Source: an uncultured Armatimonadota bacterium
GTDB taxonomy: Bacteria > Armatimonadota > Fimbriimonadia > Fimbriimonadales > Fimbriimonadaceae
Direction: 5' to 3'
NCBI GenBank assembly: GCA_903927345.1
Contig: CAIYMO010000014.1
Span: forward strand, 1 to 64,000
Length of the DNA: 64,000 nucleotides
Positions 20,499 through 28,378 of the stretch are shown here, in pieces. Every line of letters begins with the position of its first letter. The first letter of the stretch is position 1. Under the pieces are notes generated by a model. The model did no database searches. It had not been told where the DNA came from and saw only the letters and a list, made by a program, of their open reading frames with translations. A program made the position numbers and the translations under genes.

Positions 20499-20981
20499 TT
20501 ATCTCGTTTTGACGCCGGACAACCTTTCCACTGGCGTGTAGACCAGGGCGGCGAGAACGGCGTTGTACATCGCTGATATCAGTGTATCTCTCAGACTCCC
20601 TAGTATGTTCGGCTGAGAAGTTAAGAACAAGAAGACTAGACCAGCGATTAGGGTCGCAACAAAACAAGCTAATGCTGCAATCAGGAAGTTCCTCTGAAAT
20701 CGCATCTCAATTAGCGAGCCGCCGATCCAGCCAACAATCAACCGAGTGACAACGTACTGCCACATATTCGCTCCCGTAATTGCCCCCTGGAAGAAACCGC
20801 CCGTAAAGCCCGCTAACGCTGCTCCACGCAGGTCGGTGAGCATGCTGATAACCACTGTCGCAACGATGAGAAAGTCGGGCTGAGCACCGAACAAAGCGAT
20901 GTCCTTTGCAACTCCTTCGTTAAGTCCGCCACAAATCCAAAACGTCGCAATCGCGGTCCAGATCACTGAATTCCGATTCAC
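20499..20981 (-). CDS. mreD: rod shape-determining protein MreD
   Basis: A 160-residue membrane protein with about five hydrophobic helices (SVIWTAIATFWICGGLNEGV; FLIVATVVISMLTDLRGAALAGFTGGFFQGAI; FLIAALACFVATLIAGLVFLFLT). MreD sequences are poorly conserved; the assignment rests on topology, size and its position overlapping mreC by 4 bp. It works with MreB and MreC in the elongasome for lateral peptidoglycan synthesis. Confidence 0.85.
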   Translation of the reverse strand: MNRNSVIWTAIATFWICGGLNEGVAKDIALFGAQPDFLIVATVVISMLTDLRGAALAGFTGGFFQGAITGANMWQYVVTRLIVGWIGGSLIEMRFQRNFLIAALACFVATLIAGLVFLFLTSQPNILGSLRDTLISAMYNAVLAALVYTPVERLSGVKTR

Positions 20982-21763
20982 TTCAGAATCACCACCTCAC
21001 GAAGATTCCCTGGGTTCACTTTCGGCAAAATTAGCGCTCGCGAAGCACCGACTTCGGGCCTCGTTTCCGTGTTCAACACCCGTCCAATCACAATCCCCCG
21101 AGGGATTCCCCTAGGCAACTTCTCGGAAAATCCACTGGTGACAATGATGTCGCCACTCTTAACCGGAGGCTTATCGTCTTGGAAGCCCAAGATCAAGGTC
21201 TCGGTATCGTCACCACGGATCAAGCCGTAGGGCGAAGGATTATAGCCGAGCGCAGTCGCTCCAATTTGGAAGGACGGCGCGGTGATCAGCAGGGCTTGAC
21301 ACTCTCGAGGAGCAACCGTCTGAACTCTCCCAACGAGCCCCGCCGCGCAAACCACAACCATGCCCGGTTCAATCCCCTTGTTCGTTCCAGCGGCAATCGT
21401 GATGCGATCCTCAATCGAAGAATAGTAAATCACATCCGCCAGAACCTTGGGTCGATCAAAAGTCTTCTCAAGCTCCGCAAGTTGCCGTAGCGAGTCGACT
21501 TGGAACTCAAGGTCTTTAATCTTATCGTCGTAGAGGCTCAGCGAATCCAGCTGACGCTTGAGTCTCTCGTTCTCAAGCGCGTAACGATCGCCCTGTACGG
21601 CGCCGGAAAGGAATCCGGCTAGAGCCTGAAAAGTCTTATTAGAGACAGTCGCGATAGGCTGACAAATGGTGCGAACGACCAAGTCGAGCGGGCTCGTCTT
21701 GCCGTTATTGCGCTGAGAGGATTGTACGTAAGAAATAGCAAACCCTAGGATCATTAGTCCCAA
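20978..21763 (-). CDS. mreC: rod shape-determining protein MreC
   Basis: A 261-residue bitopic protein. An N-terminal membrane helix (MGLMILGFAISYVQS) is followed by a coiled coil at about 60-95 (ENERLKRQLDSLSLYDDKIKDLEFQVDSLRQLAEL) and the MreC beta-barrel domains: VIYYSSIEDRITIAAGTNKGIEPGMVVVCAAGLVGRVQTV and DIIVTSGFSEKLPRGIPRGIVIGRV, the latter a family signature. It sits between MreB inside and the penicillin-binding proteins outside. The start may be further upstream, since the membrane helix begins right at Met1 with no charged lead. Confidence 0.93.
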   Translation of the reverse strand: MGLMILGFAISYVQSSQRNNGKTSPLDLVVRTICQPIATVSNKTFQALAGFLSGAVQGDRYALENERLKRQLDSLSLYDDKIKDLEFQVDSLRQLAELEKTFDRPKVLADVIYYSSIEDRITIAAGTNKGIEPGMVVVCAAGLVGRVQTVAPRECQALLITAPSFQIGATALGYNPSPYGLIRGDDTETLILGFQDDKPPVKSGDIIVTSGFSEKLPRGIPRGIVIGRVLNTETRPEVGASRALILPKVNPGNLREVVILK

Positions 21764-21798: not shown

Positions 21799-22845
21799 TT
21801 ACGGCTGTGAGGACCTCTCAAGCATTTTGCGAATCAGGGCGTTCTCGTTCATCTCTTCCACGATAATTCCGGTCCCCAGAGCAACGCAACTGAGCGGATC
21901 ATTAGCAATATGAACGGGAACCAAGGTTTCCCTAGAAATCAATTTATCCAGGCCACGCAGAAGTGCGCCTCCACCAGCCAAGTAGATGCCTTTCTCCATT
22001 GCATCACCAGCAAGTTCAGGGGGAGAAGCCTCAAGCGTCAGCTTGATCGCATCAACAATTTCTCGAACGGGTTCGGCAATTGCGGTTCGAATCTCTTCGG
22101 ATGTGACGACAGCAGATCGTGGCAAACCGGTGACAAGGTCTCGACCCTTGATCACCATGTCCATCTCCTGCTCAAGCGGATAAGCCGACCCAATCTCGAT
22201 CTTAACCTGCTCAGCAGTCCGATCGCCAATCGCGAGGTTAAACGCTCGGCGAACATAGCTGATAATTGCTTCATCAAGCTCGTCACCAGCGGTCCTAACA
22301 GACTTCGATGAAACAATGCCGCCCAAGGAGATGACTGCGACTTCGGTTGTTCCACCACCGATATCGACGATGATTGAGCCACTTGGCTCAGAAACAGGCA
22401 GTCCAGCTCCAATCGCTGCCGCCATCGGCTCCTCAACAACATACGCGGCGGTGGCTCCCGCTTTGCGAGCTGCTTCAATGACCGCTCTCCGCTCAACTTC
22501 TGTAACGCCAGAGGGAATTCCAACGACGACCGTCGTTCGGAATGCGCCACGGCTGATTGCCGAACCAATAAAGTGCCGAAGCATCTCTTCGGTCTGCTCA
22601 TAGTCAGCAATAACGCCATCCTTCAGTGGCCGTACGGCAATGATATTCGCAGGGGTGCGACCCAGCATCCGCTTAGCCTCAGCTCCAACCTTGATGACCT
22701 TTCCATCGTCTTGGCTGACGGCAACAACACTTGGCTCGCGAAGGATGATTCCGCGTCCGGCTACGTACACGAGCGTATTGGCAGTACCAAGATCGATACC
22801 GATATCACGGTGAAATCTGCCAAACAGGCTGCGCAAAAAACTCAT
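21799..22845 (-). CDS. mreB: rod shape-determining protein MreB (actin homolog)
   Basis: A 348-residue bacterial actin that polymerises on the inner membrane and guides the elongasome. It begins [28 protein letters not shown]; the hydrophobic-basic N terminus fits membrane binding. Nucleotide-site motifs include [38 protein letters not shown] and [21 protein letters not shown]. The open frame extends 36 codons upstream through the end of remA, so the ATG at 22845 is taken from family alignment; it lies 7 bp after the remA stop. Confidence 0.97.
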
Positions 22846-22852
22846 TTTCAAT

Positions 22853-23134
22853 TTACTCTTCCGCTTCTTCAGCGTCGTCAGGCGTATGCTCAACCTCGCT
22901 GAGTCGGCGGGCAAGCGTTTCCTGCGAGATTGCAGAAAGCACCACGTCGCCACTCATCGTAAATACAACCGACTTGGTTTTCCGACCTTGGGTGGCATCA
23001 ATGACCTTCCCCGATTGTCGTAGCCCTTGTACCATACGCCGCATTGGCGCAGATTCAGTGCTCACCATCGCGATAATTTTGTCCGTCAGCACATAGTTGT
23101 AAAACCCAACATTGAGAACAACAGGTGCCGGCAT
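22853..23134 (-). CDS. remA: RemA family protein (DUF370)
   Basis: A 93-residue protein with the DUF370/RemA pattern: [72 protein letters not shown]. In Bacillus subtilis RemA is a DNA-binding activator of biofilm-matrix genes and forms a ring; homologs are widespread. Here it heads the mre operon, so it may regulate envelope or cell-shape genes. GGGAG eight bases before the ATG is its ribosome site, and that GGGAG is part of a terminator-like hairpin (23137-23172). The acidic tail [10 protein letters not shown] is an extension beyond the core. Confidence 0.9.
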
Positions 23135-23136
23135 AG

Positions 23137-23172
23137 AAAAAACTCCCAGAAGCGAATCGCAACTGAGAGTTT
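23137..23172 (-). terminator. terminator-like hairpin overlapping the remA ribosome site
   Basis: On the reverse strand AAACTCTCAG...CTGGGAGTTT (one T-G pair), then TTTTTT up to 2 bases before the remA ATG. The 3' arm contains the remA Shine-Dalgarno GGGAG. It would terminate reading from the 23212 gene and, if read through, mask remA translation. Confidence 0.6.
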
Positions 23173-23211
23173 ACTTGATTTAGGTTGGCGTAAAACGAAC
23201 CAGTTTCAGGC

Positions 23212-23553
23212 TTACTGGTCGGATGGTGAGCTCATTCCGCCACCGCCCATCGCTCCACGTCCGCCACCCATTGGGCGTCCGCCCGCTGCACTTGGACCAC
23301 CAGGCATTCGTCCGCCACCCATAGCTGCTCCGGCACCTGCTCCACCGCCTGCACCAGGAAGGGTGTTACCCATCTGAACGCCAGGATCCGGAAGCTTAGC
23401 TGCCGTCGTGTTGACCGCCGCTGGAGCTGGATCTGGAACGAGGGCTGGCTTGGTGAACATCAAAACCAAAACCGCAATCACGGCGATCACTGGGGCGACG
23501 ATAGATAGCACCAGATTAAGTTGGGTGTTTGGGCCTGGACCAGTGTTGCTCAT
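23212..23553 (-). CDS. small membrane protein with Gly/Pro/Met-rich tail
   Basis: A 113-residue protein with one membrane helix (LVLSIVAPVIAVIAVLVLMF, residues 14-33), a Pro/Ala-rich linker (PALVPDPAPAAV) and a low-complexity tail of repeated GGGRMPGG and GRPMGGG units to the end. Likely anchored with the tail outside. Not recognised as a known family. AAGGA precedes the ATG at 23553. It follows purH by 69 bp and precedes the remA terminator hairpin. Confidence 0.7.
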   Translation of the reverse strand: MSNTGPGPNTQLNLVLSIVAPVIAVIAVLVLMFTKPALVPDPAPAAVNTTAAKLPDPGVQMGNTLPGAGGGAGAGAAMGGGRMPGGPSAAGGRPMGGGRGAMGGGGMSSPSDQ

Positions 23554-23622
23554 GATGTTTAGTTCCTTGGATGCAAGGGTTAGAGGTGTAGGTTACACCA
23601 TTTTCCCAGATTTGCCAAGGGG

Positions 23623-25155
23623 TTAGTGGTTAAAGTGTCGCGTTCCCGTAAAGCACATCGCAATTCCCAACTCGTTAGCTCGATTGATCACGTCCTGATC
23701 CTTCTTGCTTCCTCCGGGTTGAACAATTGCCGCAATACCTGCCGCTGCAGCTGTCTCAATCGAGTCGGGGAACGGGAAGAACGCATCACTCGCTAGCGCC
23801 GCCCCGGTCGAGCCCTCGCCCGCCTGATCCAACGCAAGGCGAACGCTTTGCACGCGGTTCATCTGTCCTGCACCGACGCCCAGTAGCTGTGCCGAGTTTC
23901 CAACCACGATCGCATTGGACTTCACATGTTGGACAATCGCCCACTGTAACTTAAGCGCCGCCATTTGTTCGGCGGTCGGAGCAACCTCAGTGACAACCTT
24001 CCAGTCGTTAGCCGGATCTTCATCGCTCTGCTGAACAATCGCTCCTCCACGAATCGCCTTGACCGTCATGAATTCCTGACGAGGAGGCAACGCAACCTCG
24101 AGAAGTCGCACATCCTGCCCCCAACCAGCACGGTTCTTGAAGATTTCAACTGCCTCAGGCGTGAAGCTGGTCGCCAGAACGACTTCCAAGAAGTTCCCCT
24201 TAGCGGTCATCGCTTCGGCTGCTTCGAGATCGACCACGCCATTGAACGCCGCGATTCCTCCAAATGCCGAGATCGGATCAGAAGCACGAGCTAAGTTGTA
24301 GCTCTCACCAAACGAGGCACTCGTCGCCGCACCGCAAGGGTTTCCGTGCTTGATGATCGCGCATGCATTCTCCGGCAAATCTCCAACAAGCTCCCAAGCT
24401 CCAACCGAGTCATTAATGTTGTTATAGCTAAGTTCTTTGCCCCAAAGTTGTTTAGATTGTGGGAGCCCTGGCTGACCCAGTCCGTCGGCGTAAAGCGCGC
24501 CTTGCTGGTGAGGATTCTCGCCATAGCGGAACGCCTGGATCCGCCGAAGCCCAACCGCAAGAAACTCGTTCTCAAGCTCGTCAACGCCGCTTGCCGCGAA
24601 CAAATACTTAGAAATCAGGCTGTCATAGTAAGCGGTTAGGCGGAACGCCTTTGCCGCCAGCTTCGGTCGAAGTTCTGCAATTGTGCCTTCCTTAAGAGAC
24701 GAGAGAACTCCGTCATAGTCCTTCGGGTCGGTGACGATCGCGACCGAAGCGTGATTCTTCGCCGACGCCCGAATCATCGCCGGTCCGCCGATATCAATCG
24801 ACTCAATCGCCTGTGGAAGGTCGTGGGGCTTAGAGACGGTCTCCTCGAAGCGATACAGGTTCACCGCAACGACAGAAATCGGCTTGATCCCGGCCTCATC
24901 CATTGCGCTCACATGTGCAGGATTCCCGACCACCCCAAGCAAGCCACCGTGCACCATCGGGTGCAGGGTCTTGACCCGACCGTCCAGCATCTCTGGAAAT
25001 CCGGTGACTTCGCTGACGTCCGTAACCGGCAGTCCAGCTTCGCGTAAAGTTTTAGCCGTTCCGCCGGTACTCAGCAGCTCATATCCGAGCGCGCTGAGAC
25101 CTGTTGCAAACTCAACGATTCCTGACTTATCAGTCACGGAAAGGAGTGCTCTCAT
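23623..25155 (-). CDS. purH: bifunctional AICAR formyltransferase / IMP cyclohydrolase
   Basis: A 510-residue enzyme for the last two steps of IMP synthesis. The N-terminal cyclohydrolase domain (residues 1-190) has SVTDKSGIVEFATGLSALGYELLSTGGTAKTLREAGLPV and DGRVKTLHPMVHGGLL. The transformylase domain has RYGENPHQQGALY, CAIIKHGNPCGAA (the Lys-His pair), and VKSNAIVVGNSAQLLGVGAGQMNRV, and ends SDAFFPFPDSIETAAAAGIAAIVQPGGSKKDQDVI. The ATG overlaps the stop of the preceding gene by ATGA, so it is coupled to the Ig-like membrane protein. Confidence 0.97.
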   Translation of the reverse strand: MRALLSVTDKSGIVEFATGLSALGYELLSTGGTAKTLREAGLPVTDVSEVTGFPEMLDGRVKTLHPMVHGGLLGVVGNPAHVSAMDEAGIKPISVVAVNLYRFEETVSKPHDLPQAIESIDIGGPAMIRASAKNHASVAIVTDPKDYDGVLSSLKEGTIAELRPKLAAKAFRLTAYYDSLISKYLFAASGVDELENEFLAVGLRRIQAFRYGENPHQQGALYADGLGQPGLPQSKQLWGKELSYNNINDSVGAWELVGDLPENACAIIKHGNPCGAATSASFGESYNLARASDPISAFGGIAAFNGVVDLEAAEAMTAKGNFLEVVLATSFTPEAVEIFKNRAGWGQDVRLLEVALPPRQEFMTVKAIRGGAIVQQSDEDPANDWKVVTEVAPTAEQMAALKLQWAIVQHVKSNAIVVGNSAQLLGVGAGQMNRVQSVRLALDQAGEGSTGAALASDAFFPFPDSIETAAAAGIAAIVQPGGSKKDQDVINRANELGIAMCFTGTRHFNH

Positions 25156-26771: not shown

Positions 26772-28337
26772 CTACTGGGTACGAATCTCGATTGTCCCAA
26801 CGCCATAGGCCGGCAATGAGAACAAAACCCCAGACGATCCATAGTCAATCCCAAGGCTATCTGGCTCATACGGGTTCTTGACGTTTGCTTGGTACCCGAC
26901 GGCTTTCGACCCCTTAGGGATCGAGAGGCTCACTCGAATCGCTTGTTCCTTCGCAAGTTTGTTCACCGCGACAATCACGATGCGTCCCTTGATTGTTGGA
27001 TCAATACTCGCGTACACGGAGTTCGCCGCAGGTGTTTCCCCGACGACGTTGAGACCAATGCTCCCAAACCTCCCACCTTTACCATCGAAATTGGTGAACG
27101 CGCCGAAGCCCGCCACTTGCGCCGGTCGGTCGTGATTGATTCCCCAGTGACAGGCTGCAAACACCCCGAATCGGCCATAGATTCCGAGCACGTCTGCCTG
27201 GGCAACCATCCCACTCGGCTCGCTCCCCCCGCCAAAATCGTATTCGGTAATCCCCAGTTTGGTCCCTGGGTAGTTCTTCGAAATCTGCCCAATCGTCCGC
27301 GGCAGGAGACTAATCGGCTTCTTCCCAAGAGAGTCTGCGATCCAACTCGACTCGACATACGAGGGATCCCACAGCGAGCGACCCGCTTGCGCACGAGCAA
27401 GGTCCGTCTCCGCGTTGTTCTTCTCTCCGCAAATCCGATTTCCTCCCCCTTGCGCTTCCGGGTACCAATGAATATCCAAAACGTCAAGCAGTCGCTTGCC
27501 CGTCCTCACTTCCGCCTCTTTCATTTTCGCAAGATAGAACTCGAGGAAGTCTCGATCATTCCGATCAGGTGCATCTTGAAACGTGCGGTAACCGTGCCAG
27601 CCGTAGCTCGCCGGTCCGAAAACCAGTGACCCAGGAGCGACCTTTTTGACGGCGGTCGCGTATGCGATTCCGCGCTCCAAAATCCCCGCGAAACCAACAT
27701 TCTGGGGCACGATGCGCACGTGAGTCGATTGCCAAAGATCGGGCTCATTATCTAGGCTGTACCAAGTCTTGGCACCTGCTGGCTTGGACTTCTCAACAAA
27801 GTTGACAAACTCATCCTGATAAACCGATCGGTCGCTCGTATTCGGATTTAGCGAATAGCTTCCACCGGGCTTGGAGGCAAACGATTTGTTAAACCTTGCT
27901 TCCAAGTAGTTCGGAGTCTTGTTCACATCCCCATCGGGTCCCTTGTCTGCGGCAACGTAGCCCGCGCAGGGAACGGTCAGTATTGAAACCGACCCGTTCG
28001 CGGCGGCCGGCTTGTAGAAATCTGAAACCGCCTTGCCTGGCTCTTCCGTGCTGCCCATATATCCATCGTTCTGATACCGATAGTCGTTGCCGGCATTGCT
28101 AGCATTTGTCTCCCAGTTGTAGGCCGTCGTCCGATTTCCGCCCATCCGCGCCACCGTAAAGCCCTTTGCGAACTGAACCCACTTCGGATCCTTCGAATTG
28201 AACGGAAAATTCGCACCATAGATGTAAGGCGAGATAGGCGTTTGTTTAGAAACATCAATCGTAATCTGACCAAAAGCCTTCGGAGCGTCCTGGGCAAACT
28301 GGGACGACTGAAAACAAAACAGGAGCAGTGCGATCAT
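26772..28337 (-). CDS. glycoside hydrolase family 44 (endoglucanase/xyloglucanase-like)
   Basis: A 521-residue exported glycosidase. A short signal peptide (IALLLFCFQSSQFAQ) is followed by the GH44 core: PYIYGANFPF, RMGGNRTTAYNWETNASNAGNDY (family hallmark), SLDNEPDLW with the acid/base Glu near residue 198 and LGITEYDFGGG with the nucleophile Glu near 365, DILDIHWYPEAQ-type segment VLDIHWYPE, and a C-terminal beta domain. Family members cut beta-1,4-glucans. It follows the sugar-binding lipoprotein by 41 bp, suggesting uptake of its products. AGGAG precedes the ATG, but a perfect 10-bp hairpin encloses this site and start codon. Confidence 0.9.
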   Translation of the reverse strand: MIALLLFCFQSSQFAQDAPKAFGQITIDVSKQTPISPYIYGANFPFNSKDPKWVQFAKGFTVARMGGNRTTAYNWETNASNAGNDYRYQNDGYMGSTEEPGKAVSDFYKPAAANGSVSILTVPCAGYVAADKGPDGDVNKTPNYLEARFNKSFASKPGGSYSLNPNTSDRSVYQDEFVNFVEKSKPAGAKTWYSLDNEPDLWQSTHVRIVPQNVGFAGILERGIAYATAVKKVAPGSLVFGPASYGWHGYRTFQDAPDRNDRDFLEFYLAKMKEAEVRTGKRLLDVLDIHWYPEAQGGGNRICGEKNNAETDLARAQAGRSLWDPSYVESSWIADSLGKKPISLLPRTIGQISKNYPGTKLGITEYDFGGGSEPSGMVAQADVLGIYGRFGVFAACHWGINHDRPAQVAGFGAFTNFDGKGGRFGSIGLNVVGETPAANSVYASIDPTIKGRIVIVAVNKLAKEQAIRVSLSIPKGSKAVGYQANVKNPYEPDSLGIDYGSSGVLFSLPAYGVGTIEIRTQ

Positions 28338-28347
28338 CACTGCTCCT
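28311..28347 (-). promoter_or_regulatory. hairpin enclosing the GH44 ribosome site and start; possible terminator
   Basis: On the reverse strand AGGAGCAGTG - ATGATCG - CACTGCTCCT: a perfect 10-bp stem whose 5' arm is the Shine-Dalgarno and whose 7-base loop is the start codon plus four bases. GTTTTGTTTT follows, so the same element can act as a terminator for the sugar-binding protein gene upstream. Confidence 0.65.
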
Positions 28348-28378
28348 ATCGTAGTCGATTTTGTTCGTTAACGGAAGA

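Follow-up and report, generated by a model that had tools for sequence, protein, structure and literature searches.

In this study, we found that the start region of remA carries a hairpin in which the remA Shine-Dalgarno sequence (SD) and a predicted promoter box are combined, and we consider it likely that this element is a compact gate, made of a promoter, an anti-SD hairpin and a possible terminator, which shields remA-mreBCD from purH read-through. The window (the whole stretch of 64,000 nucleotides that was analysed) carries the element on the minus strand, where the order from the purH side to remA is TAAACTCTCAG-TTGCGATTCGCTT-CTGGGAGTTTTTTCT-ATG. Sequence, fold and covariation define the 5' arm AAACTCTCAG (23163..23172) and the 3' arm CTGGGAGTTT (23140..23149), which form ten pairs, one of them G-U, plus a 3-pair inner stem. 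The initial annotation had placed the remA SD in the 3' arm and the end of the T tract two bases before the remA ATG, and both statements were confirmed: GGGAG (23143..23147) is inside CTGGGAGTTT, and the tract TTTTTT (23137..23142) is followed on the minus strand by CT and then ATG (23134-23132). It had also described a TAAACT hexamer just upstream, on the 5' arm. The hexamer (23168..23173), the predicted -10 of the remA promoter according to hexamer enrichment and genus conservation, is indeed on the arm; it overlaps it, with only its first base before it, and is not wholly upstream.

All genes around the hairpin are on the minus strand. The gene that would be gated, remA (22853..23134), belongs to the Pfam RemA-like family PF04025 and is followed 7 nt past its stop by mreB (21799..22845, Pfam MreB), then by mreC (20978..21763, Pfam MreC) and, as judged by position, a probable mreD (20499..20966) with no Pfam match. 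Upstream of remA there is a gene for a small Gly-rich protein with no Pfam family (23212..23553), preceded by purH (23623..25155, Pfam AICARFT/IMPCHase); 77 bp separate the 23212 gene from remA. The protein of the 23212 gene shows by eye one likely membrane segment, and a similar ORF lies between purH and remA in the relative's locus L121.

The folding calculations confirmed that the hairpin before remA is real. For the 81-nt region the predicted energy is -20.2 kcal/mol (z = -2.57), a value that 3 of 200 dinucleotide shuffles reach or surpass; the hairpin by itself is predicted at -16.8 kcal/mol, and the first three Ts of the T6 tract pair with the AAA of the TAAACT hexamer. The duplex of GGGAG with the anti-SD was calculated at -6.8 kcal/mol; two of the 20 genus genomes had a 16S end with CCTCC, and none was found in the genome's own assembly. 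The SD of the long RNA is predicted to be inside a stable hairpin, with an opening cost of 13.7 kcal/mol when the 5' arm is present, which falls to 3.9 kcal/mol in a locally started mRNA. The cost of 13.7 ranked first among the 102 SD genes of a 329-kb own-genome sample and second among the 202 SD genes of a 729-kb sample (median 4.7).

The assignment of TAAACT as a -10 box was made from promoter statistics of the same genome. The first own-genome sample consisted of the window and 20 further stretches (L075-L094), 329 kb together, in which 278 genes were called by a simple script that gave no bonus to TANNNT in the choice of starts. In the region from -22 to -6 of these gene starts, TAAACT was the most enriched hexamer (11 seen against 0.34 expected). 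A TANNNT box at -15 to -11 was found in 58 of the 278 genes, most commonly with its first base at -12 (23 of 58), and the consensus of these boxes was G-TA-A-A-C/A-T. A TANNNT box at -12 is the pattern of putative leaderless genes, in which +1 would be the start codon. Such genes appear to be common in the own-genome sample. Start choice in the 729-kb sample favoured TANNNT starts, and the TAAACT position counts obtained there were left out of the evidence.

The remA TAAACT has its first base at -39. TAAACT stands at the -10 spot of the presumed leaderless genes, and the offset of 12 from the hexamer start, taken from the -12 peak, predicts the transcription start of remA at -27 (23161 on the minus strand, maybe a few bases off), just past the 5' arm. 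A -35 box could not be made out clearly, and a generic promoter scan listed no sigma-70-type pair at the element. It is by sequence statistics only that the promoter is placed beside or in the 5' strand and its RNA without that strand. The idea, already put forward in the initial annotation, that a message started by TAAACT may be without the 5' arm, which would leave the SD free, is well supported by these genome promoter statistics and by the comparative evidence. TAAACT was also seen in another setting: ahead of a gene for a class I tRNA synthetase of the I/L/M/V type, a perfect inverted repeat of 12 bp (L088:9445-9491) carries the hexamer in its 3' arm, some ten bases from the start; this repeat had no Rfam match.

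In the mechanism that we propose, a polymerase coming from purH and the 23212 gene would copy both arms, and the hairpin in this read-through RNA would hide the remA SD; where a T run follows the hairpin, the transcript could also end there. The -10 of the remA promoter would lie in the DNA of the 5' arm and the RNA would begin just past it, so that the hairpin could not form and remA would be translated. With read-through silenced and the local RNA free, expression of remA, and probably of the mre genes that follow, would depend on the operon's own promoter. If true, this would explain how the cell-shape operon, with a purine operon 77 bp ahead of it, achieves independent expression.

A similar arrangement is known in phage T4. 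A T4 review describes that for gene e, and also for soc, gene 49 and I-TevI, long transcripts started upstream hide the SD in a hairpin, and that the 5' strand contains, in its DNA, the late promoters of gene e, whose transcripts are without that strand and well translated (PMC3014915). The long transcripts of gene e are the early ones, and the layout is kept in related phages, according to the same review (PMC3014915). The remA element resembles the gene e leader in the SD hidden in the long RNA and in the promoter, here predicted, within the 5' strand DNA, and it would work like it. They differ in that the T4 system provides timing with late promoters, whereas the remA element belongs to a bacterial chromosome and has a housekeeping gene cluster on either side; moreover, the predicted -10 of remA is of the TAAACT type, and some species have a T run at which transcription could end as well. 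In a search of open-licence papers, no precedent was found for a chromosomal use of a gene e-type leader, and only loosely related papers on RemA/DUF370 with mreB were met. Open-licence papers gave nothing useful on leaderless genes in Fimbriimonas or Armatimonadetes, Armatimonad- promoter motifs or terminators overlapping promoters.

The effect of the 5' arm on the SD was then compared across relatives. remA was present in 52 of 61 genomes; with the genus genomes, named loci and further stretches added, 70 distinct upstream regions and that of genome G017 were collected. L110 was dropped for a too short upstream region, which left 70 loci; for some of the distant ones, the start codon is the script's choice and may be incorrect. 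A -10-like box with a score of at least 7 was present in 29 of the 70, and 4 of these (L011, L024, L095, L096) were excluded, their predicted start being at or past the SD or the SD being missing. In 24 of the 25 testable loci, opening the SD was predicted to cost more in read-through RNA than in RNA from the promoter, L027 being the exception. Each locus was compared with 300 shuffles that kept the -10, the SD and the coding start, and kept base composition within segments only. The Fisher combined p over the 25 loci was 9e-11 for the cost and 8e-14 for the difference, with related genomes treated as independent. When one value was taken from each of 14 clades, drawn by hand and by eye, the cost gave p = 3e-6 with the first member and 1.6e-4 with the worst member, and the difference gave p = 1e-8 with the first, 4e-7 with the median and about 4.6e-6 with the worst. 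The single-locus p for the difference was above 0.1 in 12 of the 25.

These data bear on the reading that TAAACT followed by CC pairs with GGAGT by chance. Even on their own, the ACT of the -10 and the AGT that follows the SD are complementary, and the shuffles keeping -10 and SD had a mean opening cost of about 6 kcal/mol at most loci, which speaks for it. However, the best loci cost far more than their shuffles, the inner pairs of the stem covary, and strong start-proximal hairpins are otherwise rarer at starts, with 20 of 278 starts against 36-43 of 275-278 places at six control offsets. The chance reading is thus already disfavoured, and we regard it as very improbable.

Within the genus, remA was found in 19 of 20 genomes, and the 20th (G017) has a strongly diverged remA-like ORF with no Pfam match. 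Its locus (L121:1526-1747) suggests that remA has diverged or decayed there; the hairpin, the promoter box and similar neighbours persist. A -10-like box, TAAACT or TACACT in a plausible place, was present in 19 of the 20 genus loci, all except L013. An SD-masking hairpin with a cost of at least 8.9 was present in 13 (L001, L002, L003, L004, L007, L008, L015, L019, L022, L023, L028, L031, L121), and the other seven, L024 among them, were below this value. In L011 and L024, TAAACT is at -12 and -16 from the remA ATG, respectively; remA looks leaderless there, or nearly so, and the hairpin is missing.

According to the initial annotation, a missing stem in relatives would have refuted the reading; the stem proved to be present in them. 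MAFFT misplaced the 3' arm in some rows of the alignment, and the arms were therefore anchored on GGAG by script. Twelve loci were anchored on both the hexamer and GGAG, and the CTC/GAG core was invariant in them, as a promoter and an SD would demand. Three inner pairs varied on both sides in these 12 loci and remained complementary (C-G/T-A in one, A-T/T-A/C-G in another, and G-C/C-G/T-A/A-T in the third). The total of contiguous inner pairs was 42 with the loci's own arms and 25 with swapped arms (permutation p = 5e-5, which for related species is not a strict probability). The stem ACTCCTCGGT/ACCGAGGAGT of L008 is different, as its 5' arm has moved and the loop contains the TACACT box; by eye, L018, L072 and L071 have layouts like that of L008, with weaker statistics.

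An inverted repeat over a -10 could also be a DNA operator, bound by RemA itself or by a repressor. The RemA-like family consists of DNA-binding regulators, and the palindrome does cover the -10. On the other hand, the hexamer start is 21 to 31 bases away from the GGAG end, depending on the locus among the 12, which argues against a protein site of fixed spacing; the letters of the inner half-sites differ yet remain complementary, and in L008 the repeat has moved off the -10. An operator thus seems improbable to us, and the gate remains the preferred reading. We regard the finding as sound: the relatives add support to it, with promoter placement and masking as its core and termination as an option.

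The element has the layout of an intrinsic terminator in the window, a GC-containing stem followed directly by a T run. A generic terminator scan did not list it because its loop is longer than 8. With loops up to 15 allowed, a hairpin with a T run was found at 27 of 257 gene ends against 0 of 257 mid-gene windows in the 329-kb sample; therefore, this genome does use such terminators. The remA hairpin is among the 27. It lies 49 nt beyond the last codon region of the 23212 gene; its 13-nt loop is longer than most of theirs and its score lower than most. Thus the stem, the T run and the place shortly after a gene end are like those of an intrinsic (Rho-independent) terminator, but the next gene has its SD in the 3' arm and its predicted -10 in the 5' arm, and the T run is unconserved. 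A run of at least five Ts right after GAG was found in 8 of the 13 hairpin-bearing genus loci and was absent in L003, L007, L015, L019 and L023. Therefore, masking looks like the more constant feature, and termination may be an extra in some species. The initial annotation had expected read-through transcripts to terminate or to have remA masked, and of this the masking part was supported, with the hairpin in 13 of 20 genus loci, and the termination part came out weaker.

The hairpin could also be only the intrinsic terminator of the purH operon, with the overlap of the remA SD and promoter as a by-product of a short intergenic gap. The hairpin with Ts at the usual spot after a gene end speaks for this reading, and a scan with loops up to 10 found no other terminator-like site in the 200 nt before remA. 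Furthermore, a separate upstream terminator was found in 3 of the 7 genus loci without a strong hairpin (L013, L021, L027) against 0 of the 13 with it (Fisher p = 0.03, with thresholds set post hoc). However, the SD pairing remains in the 5 of 13 hairpin loci that lack a 5-T run, and the link to a separate terminator is weak over all 70 loci (as a plain count, 0 of 12 at a cost of at least 10 against 8 of 58 in the rest); an association between a missing hairpin and a separate terminator was not clear beyond the genus. We consider a mere terminator unlikely, though the least unlikely of the rival explanations.

In E. coli, one hairpin, the frd terminator and ampC attenuator, ends one operon and begins the next. 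The remA element, read as a gate, is similar in that a single hairpin would serve both an operon end and the start of the next operon. The difference is that the frd/ampC hairpin is downstream of the ampC start site, whereas the remA hairpin would be missing from the locally started RNA. The initial annotation had also seen the same logic at the GH44 junction, which was not supported: the hairpin and T run at 28318-28350 have the SD in the 5' arm and the start codon inside the hairpin, and no TAAACT box was seen just upstream.

Masking of an SD by a hairpin is a common expression platform, and a switch regulated by a metabolite, temperature or a small RNA could act on messages begun further upstream. 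An Rfam search found no family at the hairpin with E up to 5, the one sub-threshold match being ToxI at 23558-23604, and this speaks against such a switch. Upstream of the TAAACT block, the three closest relatives show little sequence conservation; therefore, no aptamer or second promoter is evident there. Moreover, a simple hairpin needs no partner. A regulated switch would be still less probable than an operator.

The sequence pattern of the gate, TAAACTCCN{4,18}GGAGTTT, had 10 distinct sites in the 20 genus genomes, of which 9 are at the remA-mreB junction, G017 included, and four further sites, none before remA, in a set of 121 genomes that includes those 20. The looser pattern TAAACTCN{8,22}GAGTTT had two sites in the own genome, one of them at remA. 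The drop in SD cost from read-through to promoter RNA was the largest at remA among the 14 own-genome genes with an SD and a -10 in 729 kb. We had considered that the same gate is used genome-wide, and this was unsupported, with remA standing alone among these 14; therefore, this genome does not use the gate as a rule.

As a tentative and broader view, the element may be a selected chromosomal three-in-one boundary element, combining a promoter -10, an anti-SD hairpin and, in certain species, a terminator, which would make the cell-shape operon blind to the transcription of its neighbours. In leaderless-rich lineages, SD genes may need such gates because an SD would otherwise work on any read-through RNA. 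If true, the trick of T4 gene e would also be a boundary between bacterial operons, squeezed into about 40 bp, and the pattern to seek elsewhere would be a -10 in or inside the 5' arm with an SD in the 3' arm.

Two other places deserve mention. One of the four further sites in the 121 genomes, L131:1501-1540 in another genus of the family, has a remA-like layout, TAAACTCC...GAGGAGTTT, with GGAG six bases before an ATG, and the ORF behind it is presumably an alanine dehydrogenase; from its sequence, this site is a possible second gate. In the own genome, a strong hairpin with a T run (L141:10214-10245, minus strand) abuts the next called start after a gene that we take to be rpsU. The SD would be in its 3' arm, with a cost of 14.3, the highest of the 202 SD genes; no good -10 box was picked there.
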